DNA from: Psychrobacillus soli
GTDB taxonomy: Bacteria; Bacillota; Bacilli; Bacillales_A; Planococcaceae
Length of the DNA: 44,626 bases
NCBI RefSeq assembly: GCF_006861775.1
Contig: NZ_VDGG01000020.1
Location: forward strand, 1 to 44,626
Direction of reading: 5' to 3'
Part shown: in pieces, positions 25,466 through 32,684 of the stretch
How the letters are laid out: every line of letters starts with the position of its first letter
How positions within the stretch are numbered: the stretch's first letter is position 1
Made by a program: the position numbers and the translations under genes
Notes under the pieces: model-generated
Databases searched by the model: none
What the model saw: the letters and a program-made list of their open reading frames with translations, nothing else
What the model was told of the DNA's origin: nothing

Positions 25466-25793
25466 ATTTCCATTTGAATTATTCCGAATATTTGAGTGAT
25501 ATGTAGTTAGTTGGATATTTTTTTGAAGGAGCAAAATTAAATTGCTTCGTCAATTTATTTTCATTTATTCGTAATTTCGATTATAGTATTAACTCTTCAT
25601 TTTTTCAGGAGATTTATTTTGTACTAAACAACTTTATTGATTGTAAAATAACTCTACAATCTTTTCTTGTGAGGTTATCTGGTTATTAAATTTAGATATG
25701 AAAAATTTCACTTAAATTGAGTGCAAATTATCGCCTATGTATTAACAGATAATATGGTTTAAAAAAGATACGACAGGAAAAGAGGATATAAAG
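25466..25793. other. Gene-free AT-rich intergenic region
   Basis: No ORF, tRNA or clear operator is visible between the MFS remnant and the glutaredoxin gene. A small inverted repeat (GAAGGAGCAA / TTGCTTC) lies at about 25526-25550. No ATACC-N6-GGTAT element of the type seen in the sulfur island is found here. Confidence 0.5.
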
Positions 25794-26042
25794 ATGAAGT
25801 ATGACGTAACGGTTTATACAACCACACTATGCCCTGTATGCCGAATGGTGAAGGATTTTTTAAATGATTCTGATATACCCTTTAAAGAGGTGAATGTAGA
25901 TATCCATCCAATTGCCATGATAAAATTAATTGGGAAAACAAGGAGATTCACGGTTCCACAAACAAATATGTATGGGGAATGGATTTCTGGATTCGATCCT
26001 GTCCGGATGCTAACAGCAATTAATGTTAAAAGTAAAATATAA
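25794..26042 (+). CDS. Glutaredoxin family protein
   Basis: This is an 82-residue thioredoxin-fold thiol oxidoreductase. The active site reads CPVC in VTVYTTTLCPVCRMVKDFL, and the cis-proline loop is FTVPQTNMYGEWISGFDP. It is a paralogue of the glutaredoxin at 28969, which has CPYC; both share VTVYTT, the FNEVNV/FKEVNV strand and GFDP. RBS is AGAGGATATAAAG. It is monocistronic with its own terminator. Since bacilli usually use bacillithiol, the reducing partner is unclear. Confidence 0.87.
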   Translation: MKYDVTVYTTTLCPVCRMVKDFLNDSDIPFKEVNVDIHPIAMIKLIGKTRRFTVPQTNMYGEWISGFDPVRMLTAINVKSKI

Positions 26043-26103
26043 ATATTTGATCATTCATTATCCTATGTAATTGGAACTTTCTACAACTATGAAATATAAA
26101 TAA

Positions 26104-26139
26104 AAAACAGACAGAAATATTACTTGTTCTGTCTGTTTT
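26104..26139. terminator. Bidirectional terminator, glutaredoxin and MBL hydrolase
   Basis: AAAACAGACAGAA pairs perfectly with TTCTGTCTGTTTT across 10 nt, with T-rich DNA to the right and A-rich DNA to the left, serving two convergent genes. Confidence 0.85.
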
Positions 26140-26144
26140 GTTTG

Positions 26145-26924
26145 TTAAAATGAATAAGATTCGCCATCATCCGGTACTAAAATATTATCGGAAATCTCTT
26201 TTTCTTGACTGAAGCTTTTCAATTCTTCTCTTGATAATGTCCAGTGATTGACAGCTTCCATATGGTTAGAAATAATTTTTGCGCTTGGTGCAGCTTTATA
26301 GACTTCATAGATATCATCTTTCCCCATTACGAGCGAACCGCCTTCTAGGAATTGATTATCTCCCCCAGCTACAACGATGATTGCTGGCTTATGTGTTTCG
26401 ATTACTTCTTGAACACCTTTATACCAAACAGTATCTCCAGCTAGATATAAAGTTTTTTCACTGGGGTGTTTGAAGACAACACCACACACTTGACCAGCAA
26501 GTTCTACCAGTGGGCCTCTCCCGTGCTCGCCTTTTGTTTTAATGAATTGGATATCTTCAAAGACTGTATCCTCTTGTAAAACCTCTACATTATTGAAACC
26601 AACATTGCGAACTGCTGAAGCATCCTCATCATTCTGGACAAATAATTTAATATCTTTTGGCAATGCTTCTATAGCAGCATCATCCCAGTGGTCTAAATGC
26701 AGATGAGTGACAATGACAGCATCAATATCAGATATGATATTGTCGAGTGAAGTTGGTAAGCTAACTAAAGGATTGTTTTGATCTTGTCTTGGTGCATCGG
26801 GAAAACCTACTTGAGGTCCAAAAGGTGGATAAGTTCCTTTCTCTGCTAACATTGGGTCTATTAAAAACTTTTTGCCAGCATATTGAACAACTAGCGTAGC
26901 ATTTCGAATTTGTTTAATATCCAT
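26145..26924 (-). CDS. MBL-fold metal-dependent hydrolase
   Basis: This is a metallo-beta-lactamase-fold enzyme of the UlaG/YtkL-like group, 259 residues. The metal-binding signature is VTHLHLDHWDDAA, followed by a distal His in TKGEHGRGP, Asp in LYLAGDTVWY and a C-terminal His in ISNHMEAVNHW. The N-terminus IRNATLVVQYAGKKFLIDPM is typical of lactonase-like members. The substrate is unknown. RBS is AAAGGAGTTGTAATT. It is divergently transcribed from an Lrp/AsnC-type regulator, which probably controls it. Confidence 0.87.
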   Translation of the reverse strand: MDIKQIRNATLVVQYAGKKFLIDPMLAEKGTYPPFGPQVGFPDAPRQDQNNPLVSLPTSLDNIISDIDAVIVTHLHLDHWDDAAIEALPKDIKLFVQNDEDASAVRNVGFNNVEVLQEDTVFEDIQFIKTKGEHGRGPLVELAGQVCGVVFKHPSEKTLYLAGDTVWYKGVQEVIETHKPAIIVVAGGDNQFLEGGSLVMGKDDIYEVYKAAPSAKIISNHMEAVNHWTLSREELKSFSQEKEISDNILVPDDGESYSF

Positions 26925-26992
26925 AATTACAACTCCTTTTCTTTGATTCGTATCTAGTTTATACTATGGACAATCACCGATATATAGATAAT

Positions 26993-27020
26993 ATCAAGTC
27001 TTTTTGGGGTTTGACTTGAT
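26993..27020. promoter_or_regulatory. Palindromic operator candidate for the Lrp/AsnC regulator
   Basis: ATCAAGTC (26993-27000) and GACTTGAT (27013-27020) are perfect inverted repeats 12 bp apart in the divergent intergenic region, immediately ahead of the regulator start. This fits autoregulation by a dimeric Lrp-type protein. Confidence 0.5.
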
Positions 27021-27040
27021 TAATGAAAGGAGTTGAGAAA

Positions 27041-27451
27041 ATGTTAGATAACACAGATATCAGTATCTTAAATGAACTAACCAAGAACAGTCGTATCACT
27101 ATGAAAGAACTGGGGGAAAAAGTCCATTTGACTGGACAGGCTGCTTCTGCGAGGGTTGCAAAATTAGAGGATAGCGGAGTGATTGAAGGGTATACAATTA
27201 AAGTGAATCAAGTTAAAATGGGCTATTTTATACAAGCCTTTATTACGATTATCACACAAAGCACTTATCATCAACCCTATCTATCGTTTTTAAAAACACA
27301 AGAACCATACATAATCCATAATAATAAAATCAGTGGAGACGGTTGTTACCTTCTTGAGTGTAAATTTCCATCTAATGAAAAACTGGATGAATTTCTGGAA
27401 GACTTAAACGAACATGCAAATTATAAATTATCGATTGTCATTAATAAGTAG
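27041..27451 (+). CDS. Lrp/AsnC family transcriptional regulator
   Basis: This is a 136-residue regulator with an N-terminal winged helix (DNTDISILNELTKNSRITMK then a recognition helix LTGQAASARVAKLEDSG) and a C-terminal RAM-type ligand domain (FIQAFITIIT, GDGCYLLECKF). ATG 27041 is chosen since AAAGGAGTTGAGAAA precedes it; the frame opens six codons earlier. It is divergent from the MBL hydrolase. The ligand, presumably an amino acid or a similar small molecule, is unknown. Confidence 0.9.
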   Translation: MLDNTDISILNELTKNSRITMKELGEKVHLTGQAASARVAKLEDSGVIEGYTIKVNQVKMGYFIQAFITIITQSTYHQPYLSFLKTQEPYIIHNNKISGDGCYLLECKFPSNEKLDEFLEDLNEHANYKLSIVINK

Positions 27452-27483
27452 TGTGTATCAATAGAGTTGCCCAGATGGTAATG

Positions 27484-27512
27484 TTGACAACATACCTGCG
27501 TGGGTATATTAT
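27484..27512 (+). promoter_or_regulatory. cstR promoter with CstR operator site 1
   Basis: TTGACA (27484-27489), a 17-bp spacer and TATTAT form a SigA-type promoter. The spacer holds the 16-bp element ATACC-TGCGTG-GGTAT (27492-27507), a perfect inverted repeat of the type bound by CsoR/CstR tetramers. Binding would block RNA polymerase, giving autorepression. Confidence 0.82.
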
Positions 27513-27556
27513 AATGCTTGTCAGTAATTTTGTGATTAACATGGAGGTGAGTTCTT

Positions 27557-27817
27557 ATGGAATATAATGATCAACTAAAAAATAGAGTAAAGCGTATGGA
27601 AGGGCAACTTCGAGGGATTCTAAAAATGATGGAAGAAAATAAAGATTGTAAAGAGGTCATTACACAGTTGTCTGCTGTTCGCTCAGCAGTAGATCGAACA
27701 ATAGGTGTGATTGTAAGCTCAAACCTAGTTGAATGTGTTCAAGAGGCTGAAAAAAATGGAGAAAAAACGGACGAACTAATTAAAGAGGCTGTCAACTTAC
27801 TTGTAAAAAGCAGATAA
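27557..27817 (+). CDS. cstR: CstR-type persulfide-sensing repressor (CsoR family)
   Basis: This is an 86-residue all-helical DUF156 repressor that binds DNA as a tetramer. Cys31 (NKDCKEV) and Cys60 (NLVECV) are kept, but the CsoR copper-binding His is replaced (Asn56), the signature of CstR, whose two cysteines form di-, tri- or tetrasulfide bridges with reactive sulfur. It heads the sulfur island. The promoter has its own operator, and a terminator overlaps the 3' end of the gene. RBS is GGAGGTGAGTTCTT. Copper-sensing CsoR is unlikely because the His is lost and the neighbours are sulfur genes. Confidence 0.9.
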   Translation: MEYNDQLKNRVKRMEGQLRGILKMMEENKDCKEVITQLSAVRSAVDRTIGVIVSSNLVECVQEAEKNGEKTDELIKEAVNLLVKSR

Positions 27818-27843
27818 GAAAGTTTGGTTGACAGCTTTTTTTT
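27788..27843 (+). terminator. Terminator overlapping the end of cstR
   Basis: GCTGTCAAC (27788-27796, inside the cstR coding sequence) pairs with GTTGACAGC (27827-27835), followed by T8. It separates cstR from tusA, so the downstream genes need their own promoter. Confidence 0.82.
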
Positions 27844-27854
27844 CTTTTGTTAAT

Positions 27855-27870
27855 ATACCCATAGGGGTAC
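27855..27870 (+). promoter_or_regulatory. CstR operator site 2, upstream of tusA
   Basis: ATACC-CATAGG-GGTAC is a 16-bp inverted repeat (last base differs from GGTAT), about 30 bp before the tusA start and just after the cstR terminator. Confidence 0.75.
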
Positions 27871-27900
27871 CGGTAAAAATAATCTGATGGAGGAACAAAT

Positions 27901-28128
27901 ATGATGATAAATAAAGTATTAGATGCCAAGGGATTAGCATGCCCAATGCCAATTGTAAAAACAAAAATGGCCATAAACGAACTTGAAGTAGGTCAAGTAT
28001 TAGAAATTCATACAACAGATAAGGGGGCTAAAAGCGATTTTCCAGCATGGGCTAAATCAGGTGGGCATGAACTTTTGAAGCATGAAGAGGAAAGTGATGT
28101 ATTAAAGTTTTGGATAAGAAAGGGTTAA
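27901..28128 (+). CDS. tusA: TusA-family sulfur carrier protein
   Basis: TusA/SirA-fold proteins carry sulfane sulfur as a persulfide on a conserved cysteine. The active site GLACPMPIVKTKMA carries the CPxP motif. The 75 residues continue with VLEIHTTDKGAKSDFPAWAK, the typical second half. RBS is GGAGGAACAAAT. It lies between two CstR-type operator sites, so it may be a separate unit. In staphylococci the equivalent domain is part of CstA, fused to rhodanese; here it is a separate gene. Confidence 0.93.
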   Translation: MMINKVLDAKGLACPMPIVKTKMAINELEVGQVLEIHTTDKGAKSDFPAWAKSGGHELLKHEEESDVLKFWIRKG

Positions 28129-28146
28129 TTTTTTTTAATTAAGTAA

Positions 28147-28175
28147 ATACCCATACCGGTATGTGTAATGGGTAT
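28147..28175 (+). promoter_or_regulatory. CstR operator site 3, nested, before membrane rhodanese
   Basis: ATACC-CATACC-GGTAT (28147-28162) is a perfect 16-bp element. A further GGTAT (28171-28175) lies 9 bp beyond, and CATACCGGTATG inside is itself a perfect palindrome. Two overlapping sites may allow binding of two tetramers. Confidence 0.78.
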
Positions 28176-28195
28176 TTAACAGGGAGATGCAACAG

Positions 28196-28561
28196 ATGGA
28201 ATACGTTAGTTATATAGTAATTACGCTATTCTTGTTTTTTATCTTACAGCTTATTCTACCAACAAAAGGTGTTAGACATATATCATCAACTGATTTAAAA
28301 GAGGAACTAGTTAACAAGGATAAGCAATTTATTGATGTCAGTACACCTGGTGAGTTTAAAGGAAATCATATCCGGGGTTTTAAAAATATTCCTCTATACC
28401 AACTTTCTCGAAAAGCGGATAAGGAGCTTTCAAAGGAAAAAGAAGTGATTGTCATTTGTCAAAGTGGGATGAGAAGCCAAAAAGCAAGTAAAGTGTTAAA
28501 GAAATTGGGGTTTACAAAAGTAACAAATGTAAAAGGTGGCATGAGTGCTTGGGTCTCATAA
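28196..28561 (+). CDS. Membrane-anchored rhodanese
   Basis: An N-terminal helix (MEYVSYIVITLFLFFILQLIL) anchors a single rhodanese domain to the membrane. The active-site loop is CQSGMRSQKASK, with Cys as persulfide carrier, preceded by the family motif FIDVSTPGEFKGNHIRGFKN and followed by GGMSAWV. The ATG at 28196 is preferred to the one at 28187, because the AGGGAG site lies directly against the latter. It is 122 residues long. It probably transfers sulfane sulfur near the inner face of the membrane. Confidence 0.88.
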   Translation: MEYVSYIVITLFLFFILQLILPTKGVRHISSTDLKEELVNKDKQFIDVSTPGEFKGNHIRGFKNIPLYQLSRKADKELSKEKEVIVICQSGMRSQKASKVLKKLGFTKVTNVKGGMSAWVS

Positions 28562-28583
28562 AAAAGAGAAGGAGGATATTTCG

Positions 28584-28880
28584 ATGAAAGAAATGACTGC
28601 AAAAGAAGTAGAGTCTTTAATAAATAAAGGAAAGCTATTAAATATCATCGATGTACGTGAAGTAGATGAAGTAGCAGAAGGGAAAATTCCCGGAGCAATA
28701 AACATTCCATTAGGATTAGTCGAATTTCGTATGCATGAATTAGATAAGTCAAAAGAATATATCCTAGTTTGTCGTTCAGGAGGAAGAAGTGGTCGTGCAA
28801 CAGAATTCCTGGAAGACCAAGGTCATAATGTGATCAATATGCAAGGTGGCATGCTTTCTTGGGAAGGCAAGGTAGAGTAA
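28584..28880 (+). CDS. Rhodanese-like sulfurtransferase
   Basis: This is a 98-residue single-domain rhodanese with active loop LVCRSGGRSGRA (CRSGGRS), preceded by NIIDVREVDEVAEGKIPGAI and followed by GGMLSWEG. ATG 28584 has GAAGGAGGATATTTCG before it. It follows the membrane rhodanese by 22 bp and is co-transcribed with it. Together with TusA it would pass sulfur along a relay. Confidence 0.92.
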   Translation: MKEMTAKEVESLINKGKLLNIIDVREVDEVAEGKIPGAINIPLGLVEFRMHELDKSKEYILVCRSGGRSGRATEFLEDQGHNVINMQGGMLSWEGKVE

Positions 28881-28897
28881 ATTTTTTAATAGTTTTA

Positions 28898-28913
28898 ATA
28901 CCCCTAGCAGTAT
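28898..28913 (+). promoter_or_regulatory. CstR operator site 4, before glutaredoxin-dsrE
   Basis: ATACC-CCTAGC-AGTAT has the same 16-bp spacing as the other sites with one half-site mismatch. It lies ~70 bp upstream of the glutaredoxin gene. Confidence 0.65.
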
Positions 28914-28968
28914 TAAAGATAGGGGAATGAAAAGGATTTACAAATAATCAGTGAGGAGAGATTTGAAA

Positions 28969-29220
28969 ATGAATTCAGTAACAGTTTACACAACAACACA
29001 ATGCCCGTATTGTGTCATGCTGAAGAACTTTTTATCAGAACAAAACATCCCTTTTAATGAAGTGAATGTTGAAACACAACCTGAAGTGATGCAACGACTT
29101 GTAAAAACGACGGGGCAAATGGGCGTGCCTCAAACTGAGGTAAATGGCCAATGGATTGTAGGATTTGATCCAAATAATATTATGATCGCATTAAGAAATG
29201 GAGGAAAAATAAATGAATAG
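28969..29220 (+). CDS. Glutaredoxin family protein
   Basis: This 83-residue thiol oxidoreductase has active site CPYC in VTVYTTTQCPYCVMLKNFL and cis-Pro loop QMGVPQTEVNGQWIVGFDP. ATG 28969 is preferred over 28951 because GAGGAGAGATTTGAAA precedes it. It overlaps the DsrE-like gene by 8 bp, so the two are coupled. It is a paralogue of the gene at 25794. It probably removes mixed disulfides or persulfides in this island. Confidence 0.9.
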   Translation: MNSVTVYTTTQCPYCVMLKNFLSEQNIPFNEVNVETQPEVMQRLVKTTGQMGVPQTEVNGQWIVGFDPNNIMIALRNGGKINE

Positions 29221-29608
29221 AAAAGTAGCAATTATCGCAAGCAATGGTGGATTATTTGATGCATACAAAGTGTTTAATATCGCAACTGCAGCTGCTGCAA
29301 CAGATCAAGAAGTAGCGATTTTCTTCACATTCGAAGGACTGAACTTAATCCACAAAGAGGCAAATCAGCAACTTCCGATGCCGGAAGGAAAAGAGCATTT
29401 TGCAGAAGGATTTACAAAATCCAATGTTCCATCCATTCCAGAATTAGTTGCGATGGCTCAAGAAATGGGTGCTACATTTATTGGCTGTCAAATGACAATG
29501 GATGTTATGGGATTAGATAAAGAGGATTTTATAGATGGAATTGAAGTAGGCGGTGCTGTCACATTTTTAGAATTTGCTAAAGACGCGGATGTAACATTGA
29601 CATTTTAA
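29213..29608 (+). CDS. DsrE/DsrF-like sulfur relay protein
   Basis: This 131-residue protein has a DsrE-like alpha/beta fold (AIIASNGGLFDAYKVFNIAT, AIFFTFEGLNLIHK). One conserved cysteine, in MGATFIGCQMTMDVMGL, is the predicted persulfide carrier. DsrE-type carriers hand sulfur to and from TusA and rhodaneses. RBS GGAGGAAAAATAA lies in the end of the glutaredoxin gene. A small hairpin (AGAAG...CTTCT, ~29620-29636) follows without a T run, then osmC-like. Confidence 0.88.
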   Translation: MNRKVAIIASNGGLFDAYKVFNIATAAAATDQEVAIFFTFEGLNLIHKEANQQLPMPEGKEHFAEGFTKSNVPSIPELVAMAQEMGATFIGCQMTMDVMGLDKEDFIDGIEVGGAVTFLEFAKDADVTLTF

Positions 29609-29701
29609 CTTGGCTTAGTAGAAGTATTCCGCTTCTATAAGTGGCGGCTTGTTTACTCAGGTAGATTGCATATTATTAATTGTAATGGAGGAATGTTAAC
29701 G

Positions 29702-30136
29702 ATGGCAGAAATGAAAACAAGTTTAAATATTGTTTGGCATGGTGGAGTAACAGGGAATGGGACGCTAAAAGCAGAGTATCTTGATACAAAAGTCGCTATT
29801 CCAACCTCTTTTGGGGGGAGCGGGAACGGGGCAGATCCAAAAGAGTTACTAGTTTCTTCAGCAGCAACTTGTTTTATAGCAACTCTTACTTATATGCTTG
29901 ATAGCAGAAAACTACCTGTAGTAGAACATACAATAAATTCAGAGGTCATGATATCGGAAGATGGATTTAACATAACTCACTATCCACAAATCATTTTATC
30001 TGCGGATGCAACAGAAGCACAAATTCAATCAGCACAAAGAGCAATTGAAGGAGCAGATAAAGGGTGCGAAGTCGGAAATTTATTGAAAAAAGCAGGCGTT
30101 ATTATTGAAGTACAAGGTAAAGTTTCTTTGAAATAA
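29702..30136 (+). CDS. OsmC-family peroxiredoxin-like protein
   Basis: This 144-residue thiol peroxidase of the OsmC/Ohr family has the peroxidatic Cys in LVSSAATCFIATLTYML and the resolving Cys in ADKGCEVGNLLKKA. The GVTGNGTLKAEYLDTK start is typical of the YhfA/SACOL-type members. ATG 29702 has GGAGGAATGTTAACG ahead. In this context it may remove persulfides or hydroperoxides. No CstR-type element is seen directly upstream, so it probably reads through from the dsrE unit. Confidence 0.88.
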   Translation: MAEMKTSLNIVWHGGVTGNGTLKAEYLDTKVAIPTSFGGSGNGADPKELLVSSAATCFIATLTYMLDSRKLPVVEHTINSEVMISEDGFNITHYPQIILSADATEAQIQSAQRAIEGADKGCEVGNLLKKAGVIIEVQGKVSLK

Positions 30137-30183
30137 AGACACAGATATAACATGGATATTTTAATATTTTTTTGAACAATAAT

Positions 30184-30199
30184 ATACCGTAGGAGGTAA
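30184..30199 (+). promoter_or_regulatory. CstR operator-like site 5 overlapping the ribosome binding site
   Basis: ATACC-GTAGGA-GGTAA (last base differs from GGTAT) is at the common 16-bp spacing. The right half is also the Shine-Dalgarno sequence AGGAGGT of the next gene; a further GGTAT follows at 30201. Either it is a real operator inside the ribosome binding site or a chance overlap. Confidence 0.5.
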
Positions 30200-30203
30200 G
30201 GGT

Positions 30204-31331
30204 ATGTATATAAATACAATGACTTCAAAAGAAGTAACAAAAAAAGTATTGAACAAAGAAGAACTATTTATTTTAGATGTTCGAAATACGAATGATTTCG
30301 CAGACTGGAAAATCGAAGGTGAAAACTTTGATCATTTAAATGTTCCATACTTCGAATTAATGGATGGGGTGGAAGGAATCTTGGATGAGATTCCTACTGA
30401 TAAAGATACACTCGTTGTTTGTGCAAAAGGGCGTTCATCTATCATGGTTGCAGAAATGCTTACAGAGGCGGGAATATCTGTTTTTTCCCTAGACGGTGGA
30501 ATGAAAGCATGGAGTGAACATTTAGCACCTGTTAAAGTTGGGGATTTAAAAGGGGGTGGAGAGATTTATCAGTTTGTACGAATTGGTAAGGGATGCTTGT
30601 CTTACATGATCGTCTCAAACGGTGAGGCTGCCATTATTGATGCGGCAAGAATGACGAATGTCTATCTTGAATTTGCCGATCGTATTGGCGCAAAAATTAC
30701 CTATGTATTTGATACACATCTACATGCCGATCATATTTCTGGTGGAAGAAAACTTGCTGAAAAAACAAACGCAACATACTGGCTTCCACCAAAAGATGCT
30801 GTAGATGTAACGTTTGATTATGAACCACTAGAAGATGGAGATGTAGTGACAATTGGTAATGCTTCTATAAATATTCATGCGTTATATTCTCCAGGTCATA
30901 CAATTGGATCGACATCATTTGTTGTGGACGAAAGGTTCTTACTATCAGGAGATATTTTATTTATTGATTCAATTGGAAGACCGGACCTTGCTGGGTTAGC
31001 GGAAGATTGGGTTGGAGATTTAAGAGAAAGTCTATACACGAGATACAGAGATTTATCTGGGGAACTAATGGTACTACCAGCACACTTTATGATTATTGAT
31101 GAATTAAATGCAGATGGTAGTGTATCTGAAAAGTTAAGTACGCTCTATGAAACAAATCATGGACTAAACATTAAGGATGAAAATGAATTTAGAAAAATGG
31201 TGACTGAAAATTTACCGCCACAGCCAAATGCATATCAAGAAATTCGAGAGATGAATATGGGGAAAGTTACCTCTGATGAAGAAACACAACGTGAAATGGA
31301 AATTGGACCAAATCGTTGTGCAGTTCGATAA
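30204..31331 (+). CDS. Rhodanese-persulfide dioxygenase fusion (CstB-like, swapped order)
   Basis: This 375-residue fusion has an N-terminal rhodanese domain with active Cys73 in [11 protein letters not shown]. It is followed by an MBL-fold persulfide dioxygenase of the ETHE1 type: metal motif THLHADH (171-177), [27 protein letters not shown] and PAHFMI. The dioxygenase oxidises persulfide sulfur to sulfite; the rhodanese could form thiosulfate or feed persulfide. In staphylococcal CstB the order is dioxygenase first, rhodanese last; here it is reversed. A Cys lies four residues from the end (NRCAVR). RBS GTAGGAGGTAAGGGT. A terminator follows. Confidence 0.92.
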
Positions 31332-31348
31332 AAAGGTTGAAGATGACC

Positions 31349-31380
31349 AAAAAGGGAACCCATAGTAGGTTCCCTTTTTA
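31349..31380 (+). terminator. Terminator after the rhodanese-dioxygenase gene
   Basis: AAAAAGGGAACC pairs with GGTTCCCTTTTT across a 7-nt loop. It lies 14 bp before the TauE gene, so that gene may depend on read-through or on a start inside the region. Confidence 0.8.
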
Positions 31381-31393
31381 GAAGGAGGTTAAA

Positions 31394-32182
31394 ATGGATA
31401 TAAGCTTTATTGCTATCATCTTCTTCATTGGATTAATAGGCTCATTTATTTCGGGAATGTTAGGAATAGGTGGATCCATTATTAATTTCCCTATGTTGCT
31501 GTATATCCCTTCTGCGCTTGGTATTGCCCAATTTACAGCCCATGAAGTATCAGGAATAACTGCAATCCAAGTGTTCTTTGCGACGATTGGCGGTGTCTAT
31601 GCTTATCGAAAAGGTGAATTTTTAAATAAGAAATTAATCGCTTACATGGGTGTTAGTATTTTAATCGGTAGTTTTTTGGGGGGGTTAGGTTCTACACATA
31701 TGCCTGAAAGTGGAATCAATTTGGTATATGGAATTTTAGCGATAATTGCAGCCGTCATGATGTTCATACCTAAAAAAGGACTTGATGACATACCGCTAGA
31801 GCAAATAAAGTTTAACAAATGGCTTGCCGCATTACTTGCATTAATCGTTGGGATAGGAGCAGGTATTGTTGGTGCAGGAGGCGCATTCTTGTTAGTACCG
31901 ATCATGCTTACCGTTTTAAAAATACCTACACGAATGACAATAGCCTCTTCCTTGGCTATCACACTTATTTCATCGATTGGTGCGATCTCTGGGAAAGTGT
32001 CAACGGGGCAAGTGGAATTCTTACCATCACTTATTATGGTGGTTGCTAGCTTATTTGCCGCACCACTTGGGGCGATGGCTGGAAAAAAGGTAAATACAAA
32101 AGTGTTACAGGTGATTCTAGCTTTCTTAATATTTGTAACGGCAGTGAAGATTTGGTTAGATATATTATTTACGAACAATTAA
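31394..32182 (+). CDS. Sulfite exporter TauE/SafE family permease
   Basis: This is a membrane permease of 262 residues with about eight helices and the two TSUP repeats: [20 protein letters not shown] in the first and [20 protein letters not shown] in the second. In staphylococcal cst operons, TauE removes the sulfite formed by CstB. Position right after the dioxygenase supports the same job. RBS is AGAAGGAGGTTAAA. The shared terminator ahead of it and lack of an obvious operator suggest lower or separate expression. Confidence 0.92.
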
Positions 32183-32240
32183 TAAGTTTCATTCATAAAG
32201 AAGGCAATACTATACGAAATCATCGATAGGAGGTATAAAC

Positions 32241-32684
32241 TTGCAAGAAAAAAAGTTGCAAACCTATGAAAATCACACACGACTTCACCCTTTACAACAT
32301 TTTATATTCATGCCGATTGGTGCAATTACATTATTGGTGGCAATTATCTTTACAATTACGAGCATCGTGAAAGATGATTTTTCCTTCATTACATTTTTAA
32401 TAATGGCTTTAGTTATCATGAGTATTATTGCAGGACTACTCGCAAGGATGAATGCGTTAAAAGTTCAAGATCGGACGATTCGAGTGGAGGAACAATTGCG
32501 CTATTTTATGTTAACAGGATCACCAATCGACTCTCATATTACGATGCCGCAACTGATAGCCTTGCGCTTTGCTTCAGATGATGAGTTTCCTGGTCTTGTT
32601 TCAAAAGCCGCATTAACTGGCATGACACCTGATGAAATAAAAAAAGAAATTCAGCAATGGAGAAAAGACGAGCACCGGGTCTAA
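32241..32684 (+). CDS. DUF6526-like small membrane protein
   Basis: This 147-residue protein has a short N-terminus (LQTYENHTRLHPLQHFIF), two transmembrane helices (about residues 22-44 and 48-68) and an ~80-residue cytosolic tail with IALRFASDDEFPGLVSKAAL and a TPDEIKKEIQQWR motif. The layout fits DUF6526, which has no known role. The start is TTG after TAGGAGGTATAAAC. It lies between the sulfite exporter and a bacilliredoxin on the same strand. A link with thiol stress is guilt by association only. Confidence 0.6.
   Translation: MQEKKLQTYENHTRLHPLQHFIFMPIGAITLLVAIIFTITSIVKDDFSFITFLIMALVIMSIIAGLLARMNALKVQDRTIRVEEQLRYFMLTGSPIDSHITMPQLIALRFASDDEFPGLVSKAALTGMTPDEIKKEIQQWRKDEHRV

Follow-up and report, generated by a model that had tools for sequence, protein, structure and literature searches.

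Staphylococcal cst loci have two operators. In Staphylococcus aureus, CstR is a CsoR-family repressor of a sulfide detoxification operon that senses per- and polysulfides through Cys31 and Cys60, and it is thought to control that one operon (PMC5480029). In Bacillus licheniformis, the cluster of the CstR-like regulator YrkD comprises 11 genes transcribed into a single polycistronic RNA; YrkD binds on either side of its own gene (Kd 2.4 µM before yrkD and 2.3 µM after it) and releases DNA on elemental sulfur (PMC9918477). Only IR1, IR2, and IR9 among ten intergenic regions drove a reporter in E. coli, and the native transcription start of the second region was not found (PMC9918477). Here we describe a related island in Psychrobacillus soli, carried on a stretch of 44,626 nucleotides (contig NZ_VDGG01000020.1, C15 of the 4.23-Mb genome; hereafter the window), in which five operator elements of the form ATACCNNNNNNGGTAT stand before sulfur genes that begin with cstR.

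As originally predicted, the regulator is by its sequence of the CstR type: Cys31 and Cys60 are invariant, and Asn replaces the His of CsoR, in an alignment with the CstR of a second island of the same genome and a CsoR-like protein of contig C8. Its matches to the NCBIfam models for RicR (56.5 bits, cut-off 175), FrmR (40.8, cut-off 133), and RcnR (37.9, cut-off 138) all fall under the cut-off. The island resembles the YrkD cluster in its CstR-like regulator, its homologous genes, and the sites flanking the regulator gene, which in B. licheniformis were bound in electrophoretic mobility shift assays and belong to a cluster with a polycistronic RNA (PMC9918477). Unlike the S. aureus case, islands of the present kind mostly hold three to five sites, and the inner ones are accompanied by A/T tracts. 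Binding of YrkD was assayed at IR1, IR2, and IR9 only, and neither a roadblock nor a tract is described in the accessible sections of that report (PMC9918477).

On balance, we lean toward a persulfide-responsive operon in which a repressible promoter is followed by CstR operator gates in series. We propose more tentatively, and at slightly less than an even chance, that the inner sites are ligand-controlled, repressor-dependent bacterial terminators, in which the repressor would set the stop and an A/T tract located there would make the polymerase fall off; before one of the genes, encoding a rhodanese with a metallo-beta-lactamase fold (MBL-rhodanese), a hairpin plus an A tract would take the place of the A/T tract in some relatives. 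Such a terminator would have the layout known from RNA polymerase I, reused in series within one operon; persulfide would open it, and it would be conserved from Psychrobacillus to Paenibacillus.

Operator sites in the window and in related islands

A pattern scan of the window placed the element, 16 bp long in each case, at 27492, 27855, 28147, 28898, and 30184, in the gaps preceding cstR, tusA, a rhodanese gene, the glutaredoxin-dsrE pair, and the MBL-rhodanese gene, respectively. The last of these genes was called a dioxygenase in the original prediction; we infer its function from its domains. Between 27484 and 30215 there are five places with at most one mismatch where 0.06 are expected, and over the whole window there are seven against a mean of 0.97 in 40 first-order Markov simulations; at two mismatches or fewer, 29 places stand against 14.9 in shuffles. 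The observation of five sites is confirmed, and is stronger than first claimed, although two sites (27492 and 28147), and not three, are perfect, the remaining three having one mismatch each. Each site does lie in a gap before a sulfur gene, and relatives support all five, including the weakest two at 28898 and 30184. It was considered whether site 5 is a chance product of the Shine-Dalgarno sequence that it overlaps, and this was rejected because a ribosome site would leave its ATACC half unexplained, and this half is conserved in the two islands of the genome as well as in relatives.

In the genome as a whole, perfect places cluster in the CstR islands: of six, two are in the window island, three in the second island (contig C1, locus L016), and one within a coding sequence. 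At one mismatch there are 105 places against 122 for a reversed control, that is, no general excess, so the signal resides in the CstR islands, and a regulon outside the two islands of this genome was dropped from consideration. The sixth perfect place (C21:45345), inside a coding sequence that resembles cysK by eye, and a one-mismatch site inside a rhodanese gene of the second island (L016 8660) were set aside as likely chance matches.

The comparison with relatives drew on 142 loci. Besides the window and the second island, there were 60 stretches from same-family genomes, hand-picked among the matches listed, and 80 named loci that include Psychrobacillus, Bacillus, Neobacillus, Rossellomorea, and Paenibacillus. 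These gave 149 cstR hits, of which 99 head a chain with at least three sulfur genes and 50 one with fewer; after removal of six duplicates, 93 nonredundant islands remained (39 from the source genome and the same-family genomes, 54 named), with the window and the second island among them. Gaps were defined as whatever lies outside recognized genes, and unrecognized genes thus count as gap. In the 93 islands the motif, at one mismatch or fewer, occurs 366 times in 60,069 gap bases versus 19 times in 364,188 coding bases, and control patterns (N4, N5, N7, and N8 spacers, reversed, or with rearranged half-sites) occur zero to nine times in the gaps.

The choice of gap is specific. A site stands within about 150 bases before cstR in 66 of 93 islands, several of the others having a promoter-type site further upstream, and after cstR in 92 of 93. 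Further in, sites occupy the gaps from rhodanese to tusA-rhod (60/65), from dsrE to tusA-rhod (13/15), from tusA to dsrE (34/34), from rhodanese to glutaredoxin (9/10, window included), and from tusA to rhodTM (6/9, window included). In other gaps that were searched no site was found: those between rhodaneses (0/61), from MBL-rhodanese to tusA (0/60), from tusA to tauE (0/58), from dsrE to rhodTM (0/41), from tusA-rhod to dsrE (0/23), and from MBL-rhodanese to tauE (0/26). Before MBL-rhodanese a site was found in 65 of 80 gaps searched and in four of nine shorter gaps examined later, and the position of site 5 is shared in 66 islands of the class alignment. Among 20 loci added later, which are not a blind hold-out since nine were chosen after a tract-plus-operator pattern had shown beside the gene, 16 have a site at one mismatch or fewer before MBL-rhodanese, and the copy of this gene that lies behind the other genes of the island is always internal, never the first of a unit. 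Sites per island number one in 2 islands, two in 2, three in 27, four in 45, and five in 17, with three to five in 89 of 93; the five sites of the window are thus at the upper end of normal and are not exceptional.

Nine of the later loci (L229, L232-L239) have another MBL-rhodanese gene ahead of the cstR promoter, in the same direction and outside the gated operon, and within the stretch fetched no site at one mismatch or fewer precedes these second copies.

Two kinds of site and the upstream A/T tract

For analyses of promoters, tracts, and hybrids the best site of each gap was used, and sites were classed by gap: A before cstR, B after cstR, C before tusA-rhod, D before MBL-rhodanese, E before dsrE, and F between rhodanese and glutaredoxin. 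Window site 4 belongs to class F and window site 3 to a tusA-rhodTM class, both small. The consensus of class A, TTGACAAT-ATACCT...GGGGTAT-ATTATA, places the operator between the -35 and -10 elements of a sigma-A promoter; promoter-like matches occur at 67 of 70 class A sites against 15.9 expected, and in 91% of the 70 the match has its -35 at the same offset as P1, the promoter at window site 1. In class B, 67 of 92 are promoter-like against 20.9 expected, and 45% of the 92 have a match with the -35 at the offset of P2, the putative promoter at site 2. There is no such excess in C (11/73, 13.3 expected), D (17/66, 14.7), E (12/34, 10.7), F (0/9, 1.8), or the tusA-rhodTM class (1/6, 1.9), and window sites 3, 4, and 5 have no promoter match within 106 nt. 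A general scan of positions 25500-32300 gave 27 promoter-like and 3 terminator-like places versus 26.5 and 4.0 in shuffles; because promoter-like places show no excess, single matches are weak evidence unless relatives agree.

Promoters of other types at the inner sites were sought and rejected. Extended -10 promoters are absent from classes C (0/73), D (0/66), and E (0/34), with 3.1, 2.1, and 2.8 expected. The right half of the operator reads GGGTAT, the sequence of a sigma-B -10, and the GTTTAA (5/6) that should then lie 12-16 bases away is rare (A 0/70, B 3/92, C 4/73, D 2/66, E 4/34).

These counts bear on the idea that every site heads its own promoter, with CstR repressing four or five units and the tract serving as a promoter element, for example a UP-like one. 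The promoters at sites 1 and 2 speak for it, as do the bases ahead of inner sites, often AATAAT or TAATAT with a mean match to TATAAT of about 4/6 at -4, and in composition the tract is like the A/T blocks found in UP elements. Yet neither -35/-10 nor extended -10 matches are in excess at the inner classes, and sigma-B matches are few. Moreover, 4 bases separate the end of site 5 from the ATG, so that a transcript starting downstream of it would lose the ribosome site; a UP-like stretch at -20 to -11 (numbered from the operator) would place the -10 beyond the operator; and class A, the promoter class, is mostly without the tract. The UP-element reading of the tract was rejected on geometry and because most class A sites have no tract, and independent promoters at every site are unlikely. 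The four or five separate units of the original prediction are only partly supported: sites 1 and 2 have promoters, and separate units at sites 3-5 find no support. Most likely the island is a single operon whose start can be repressed and in which CstR gates follow one another, rather than five independent units.

A hairpin of -8 kcal/mol or stronger is present at 76 of 92 class B sites, with its foot at -21 to -8 in 67, and at 30 of 70 class A sites, with its foot there in 8. After the window cstR there is a stable hairpin followed by a U run, as in an intrinsic terminator, and this combination is not the rule at classes C and E. The inner classes have an operator inside what we infer to be a transcribed region, without a promoter of its own, co-transcription of the window region being argued from the packing of its genes and from the B. 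licheniformis case.

What the inner sites share is a stretch of A and T only at -20 to -11. In classes C, D, and E, A or T accounts for 82-100% at every one of its positions, and for 97-100% from -18 onward; at -11 the share of T is 88-97%, and from -10 G or C becomes more frequent again. At least nine of the ten bases are A/T in 68 of 73 class C sites, 64 of 66 in D, 34 of 34 in E, 7 of 9 in F, and 6 of 6 in the tusA-rhodTM class, versus 16 of 70 in A; in islands with a GC content of 0.44-0.53 the corresponding counts are 6/7 (C), 2/2 (D), and 3/3 (E), versus 0/8 (A). In class B, where the T run belongs to the terminator, the ten bases are all A/T at 29 of 92 sites. The mirror window downstream of the operator is all A/T in at most one site per class, and the tract is thus upstream only. 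Its spacing is strict: in T-rich tracts the distance from the end of the tract to the operator has a standard deviation (SD) of 0.6-0.9 nt, while that to the upstream stop codon has an SD of 4-84 and that from operator to start codon one of between 1.3 (class D) and 21. A measurement that set no limit on tract position agrees. Each of the T runs that precede window sites 3, 4, and 5 has its last base at -11 (28136, 28887, 30173).

A compound pattern, in which ATTTTTT is followed after 9-12 bases by the operator, was found in 124 of 261 genomes of the family; among the matches listed, a few are of the promoter type. Its reverse gave 15 matches, in 13 genomes. A looser version occurs in the source genome in the two CstR islands only. 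In the 20 later loci a tract with at least nine of ten A/T was seen in 17, including 8 of the 11 chosen without prior sight of the pattern. Upstream of cstR in L130 (6559) and L144 (6882), a tract plus operator lies before a gene that by eye encodes a putative pyridine-nucleotide disulfide oxidoreductase, and the element may thus serve other genes too.

Tracts of either A or T, as in class D, would also fit a role in DNA shape, by stiffness or bending, and the CsoR-family protein TTHA1953 is known to bind as an apparent octamer (PMC10318464). On that account the tract would aid binding or wrapping of a CstR octamer, and the inner sites would act by local repression or looping. The operator is palindromic, yet the tract is found upstream only (although ribosome sites or coding sequence often limit what can stand downstream), and promoter operators have the same core and mostly no tract. 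Nor does the tract compensate for weak operators: it is equally common at perfect and mismatched sites in C (33/36 vs. 31/37) and E (15/16 vs. 15/18), and commoner at perfect sites in D (6/7 vs. 40/59) and B (20/40 vs. 9/52). We regard a DNA-shape element as rather unlikely.

Two further accounts do without gates. Since any inverted repeat can fold in RNA, and the sites are near Shine-Dalgarno sequences, they might be RNA hairpins before genes, affecting processing, stability, or ribosome access, and not DNA operators. The same core, however, lies untranscribed inside promoter P1; positions 6 and 11 show independent variation, with C-A in 59 of 265 versus about 52 expected on independence; and there is no Rfam match at the gathering score between 25000 and 33500. 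Independent positions and the lack of an Rfam match disfavor RNA hairpins, which we consider highly improbable. The inner sites might alternatively be relics or weak decoys that titrate CstR, with P1 and P2 alone providing regulation, as would suit the single operon thought to be controlled by CstR in S. aureus (PMC5480029) and the co-transcription of the B. licheniformis genes (PMC9918477). Against this, the site, the choice of gap, and the tract are kept across islands while the noncoding sequence further upstream in class D shows no consensus in the alignment, and relics or decoys appear quite improbable.

Proposed gates in series and their precedents

In the operon with gates that we favor, reduced CstR, probably as an octamer, would occupy site 1 and block P1, which would still have to fire at a basal rate because CstR itself must be made. 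Escaping transcripts would meet further barriers: past cstR, the intrinsic terminator and site 2, the latter also covering P2, and then sites 3, 4, and 5, which would keep CstR ahead of the elongating RNA polymerase. The active site of a blocked polymerase would lie about 10-11 bases before the operator, and transcripts would end near 28136-28137, 28887-28888, and 30173, predictions exact to 1-2 bases. Having a hybrid of A and U only, the halted complex would be weak or prone to backtracking, and would be removed, probably with Mfd. Persulfide-driven Cys cross-linking is reported to end DNA binding by CstR; here persulfide would join Cys31 to Cys60' and take CstR off all sites together, whereupon promoters and gates would open and the full operon be read. 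Successive gates on one transcript should multiply, so that the last genes, and among the gated ones MBL-rhodanese, would be the most tightly silenced. The graded response proposed in the original prediction is not what sites in series would be expected to give.

The position of the tract agrees with what is known of stalled polymerase. In classes B-E the 3' end of the weakest 9-bp RNA:DNA hybrid falls mostly at -10 to -12, and in A it has no preferred place; at window sites 3, 4, and 5 it ends at -10, -10, and -11. When B. subtilis RNA polymerase is blocked by EcoRI*, its active site is reported to lie 12-13 nt upstream of where EcoRI* is bound (PMC3913778). Taken together, the stall distance and the place of the weak hybrid imply that CstR would stop a polymerase roughly where the hybrid consists of A/U pairs only. 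Among class D sites, 1 of 45 with a T-rich tract has a hairpin of -7 kcal/mol or stronger, versus 15 of 21 others (Fisher 2.9e-9), and strong hairpins have their foot about 5-10 nt before -11; T tract and hairpin could be two ways of destabilizing the same stopped complex.

Proteins bound within transcribed regions are reported to stop polymerase in several systems, namely CcpA and CodY in Bacillus, LacI in E. coli, and C.Kpn2I, with Mfd aiding removal (PMC4132739, PMC10310618, PMC6237814). The accessible sections of these reports do not describe a fixed A/T tract; here, by contrast, sites come in series, most with a tract at a set distance. Sequence upstream of the roadblock could matter according to one of them, although it was not among the factors tested in that study (PMC4132739). 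At the terminator of eukaryotic RNA polymerase I, a roadblock protein (Reb1, Nsi1, or TTF1) makes the polymerase pause within a T-rich stretch that lies 15 bp upstream of the protein's site (PMC12366685). The proteins and polymerase are unrelated to those here, and release there requires an RNA hairpin, mostly missing at classes C and E; as we see it, the likeness is one of layout only and not of membership. In the trp leader of B. subtilis, TRAP induces termination for which an A+U-rich segment is described as the sole clear requirement in vivo (PMC3913778); TRAP differs in binding RNA, and not DNA ahead of the polymerase. For the CsoR and CstR family we found no report of a roadblock in the open-access literature, outside which most subscription papers lie.

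Several points weigh against gates of this kind, and against release at them in particular. Measured binding of CstR at sites 3-5 was not found in the literature consulted, the YrkD assays, which showed modest affinity (Kd 2.3-2.4 µM), being confined to IR1, IR2, and IR9 in the accessible text, where no binding at IR3-IR8 is reported (PMC9918477). Release would mostly have to occur without a hairpin, as one of -8 kcal/mol with its foot at -21 to -8 exists at 10 of 73 class C sites and 0 of 34 in class E. B. subtilis polymerase blocked by EcoRI* is reported to stay bound and competent for at least 1 h (PMC3913778), and RNA polymerase I, when Reb1 or Nsi1 holds it in a T-rich stretch, to release RNA only with an upstream hairpin (PMC12366685), so that a roadblock plus a T tract need not terminate alone. 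The exchange of hairpin for T is not significant in C (p 0.08) or B (p 0.71), is absent in the later loci (2/10 vs. 4/10), and depends on a threshold set post hoc; the hybrid energies are estimates. When class D is reduced to representatives at 80% CstR identity, 3 of 9 have at least five T in -17 to -11, while 9 of 9 are A/T-rich. Sites in the short gaps of L095, L097, and L100 overlap the end of tusA-rhod and have no tract, and relatives are not independent events. Mfd is reported to clear polymerase from roadblocks in vivo (PMC4132739), and Mfd or translation could supply release where a hairpin is lacking.

Roadblock repression is usually framed in terms of how strongly a protein grips DNA, whereas in these islands the sequence immediately before the operator seems, across wide evolutionary distances, to be tuned so as to complete the stop. 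This would offer a sequence rule for finding regulated roadblocks, with 173 elements of classes C, D, and E on which to try it. If gates in series are correct, they would account for a repressor gene that stands first in its own operon with no leakage of the enzymes behind it, and multi-site regulons would have to be reread, as extra operators need not imply extra promoters.

Features of the island and further observations

Coordinates of the island are collected in Table 1. The terminator at the end of cstR has a loop too long for the general terminator scan and was found by folding with a z-score.

Table 1. Features of the sulfur island, in window coordinates.
Feature	Position	Strand	Details
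Promoter P1 of cstR	27484..27512	+	TTGACA 27484-27489, 17-base spacer, TATTAT 27507-27512; 11/12 matches; operator 1 fills spacer
Operator site 1, ATACCTGCGTGGGTAT	27492..27507	.	0 mismatches
cstR, CsoR/RcnR-family repressor of CstR type	27557..27817	+	86 aa; PF02583, 89.6 bits (cut-off 22.8)
Intrinsic terminator, cstR end	27785..27843	+	hairpin 27785-27838, -19.7 kcal/mol, z -2.92; T8 27836-27843
Putative promoter P2 before tusA	27828..27856	+	TTGACA 27828-27833 (within cstR terminator stem), 17 bases, TAATAT 27851-27856, TG ahead; 10/12 matches
Operator site 2, ATACCCATAGGGGTAC	27855..27870	.	1 mismatch (GGTAC); overlaps P2, follows cstR terminator
tusA (sulfur carrier)	27901..28128	+	PF01206, 89.5 bits
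A/T-only tract before site 3	28127..28136	+	at -20..-11; T8 28129-28136 ends at -11
Operator site 3, ATACCCATACCGGTAT, proposed roadblock gate	28147..28162	.	0 mismatches
Rhodanese	28187..28561	+	PF00581, 68.7 bits; N-terminal hydrophobic stretch (by eye); GGGAG ribosome site favors ATG at 28199
Second rhodanese	28584..28880	+	PF00581, 72.9 bits
A/T-only tract before site 4	28878..28887	+	at -20..-11; T6 ends at -11
Operator site 4, ATACCCCTAGCAGTAT, proposed roadblock gate	28898..28913	.	1 mismatch (AGTAT), weak right half
Glutaredoxin-like protein	28969..29220	+	PF00462, 68.6 bits
dsrE-like sulfur carrier	29213..29608	+	PF13686, 119.9 bits
OsmC-like protein	29702..30136	+	PF02566, 43.8 bits
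A/T-only tract before site 5	30164..30173	+	at -20..-11; T7 30167-30173 ends at -11
Operator site 5, ATACCGTAGGAGGTAA, proposed roadblock gate	30184..30199	.	1 mismatch (GGTAA); overlaps Shine-Dalgarno sequence
MBL-rhodanese (rhodanese + metallo-beta-lactamase-fold protein)	30204..31331	+	PF00753, 62.6 bits; PF00581, 41.2 bits
TauE-like permease	31394..32182	+	no operator ahead; named by likeness to yrkJ (PMC9918477); conserved position; NCBIfam match far below cut-off only

The second, diverged CstR island of the genome (L016 4632-9168; G000:C1:97000-112000) encodes a CstR 70% identical to that of the window and has four gap operators of its own, two of them adjoining Shine-Dalgarno sequences. 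Given two CstRs and near-identical operators, cross-regulation may occur.

A gene for an Lrp/AsnC-type regulator (27041-27451) lies directly upstream of cstR in the window, and in the same place in several relatives (L051-L053, L055-L057). Around site 3 there is a perfect inverted repeat (28145-28177) made up of AAATACCCAT (28145-28154) and ATGGGTATTT (28168-28177), one arm of which overlaps the operator; the repeat may represent an additional half-site or form an RNA hairpin. In L059-L063 and L070, a cstR 81-83% identical to that of the window has no recognized sulfur genes and no operator at one mismatch or fewer nearby. A CstR 95% identical to that of the window is encoded in L115 (NZ_JADHDX010000004.1), a record named Arthrobacter beigongshangensis that is probably mislabelled.

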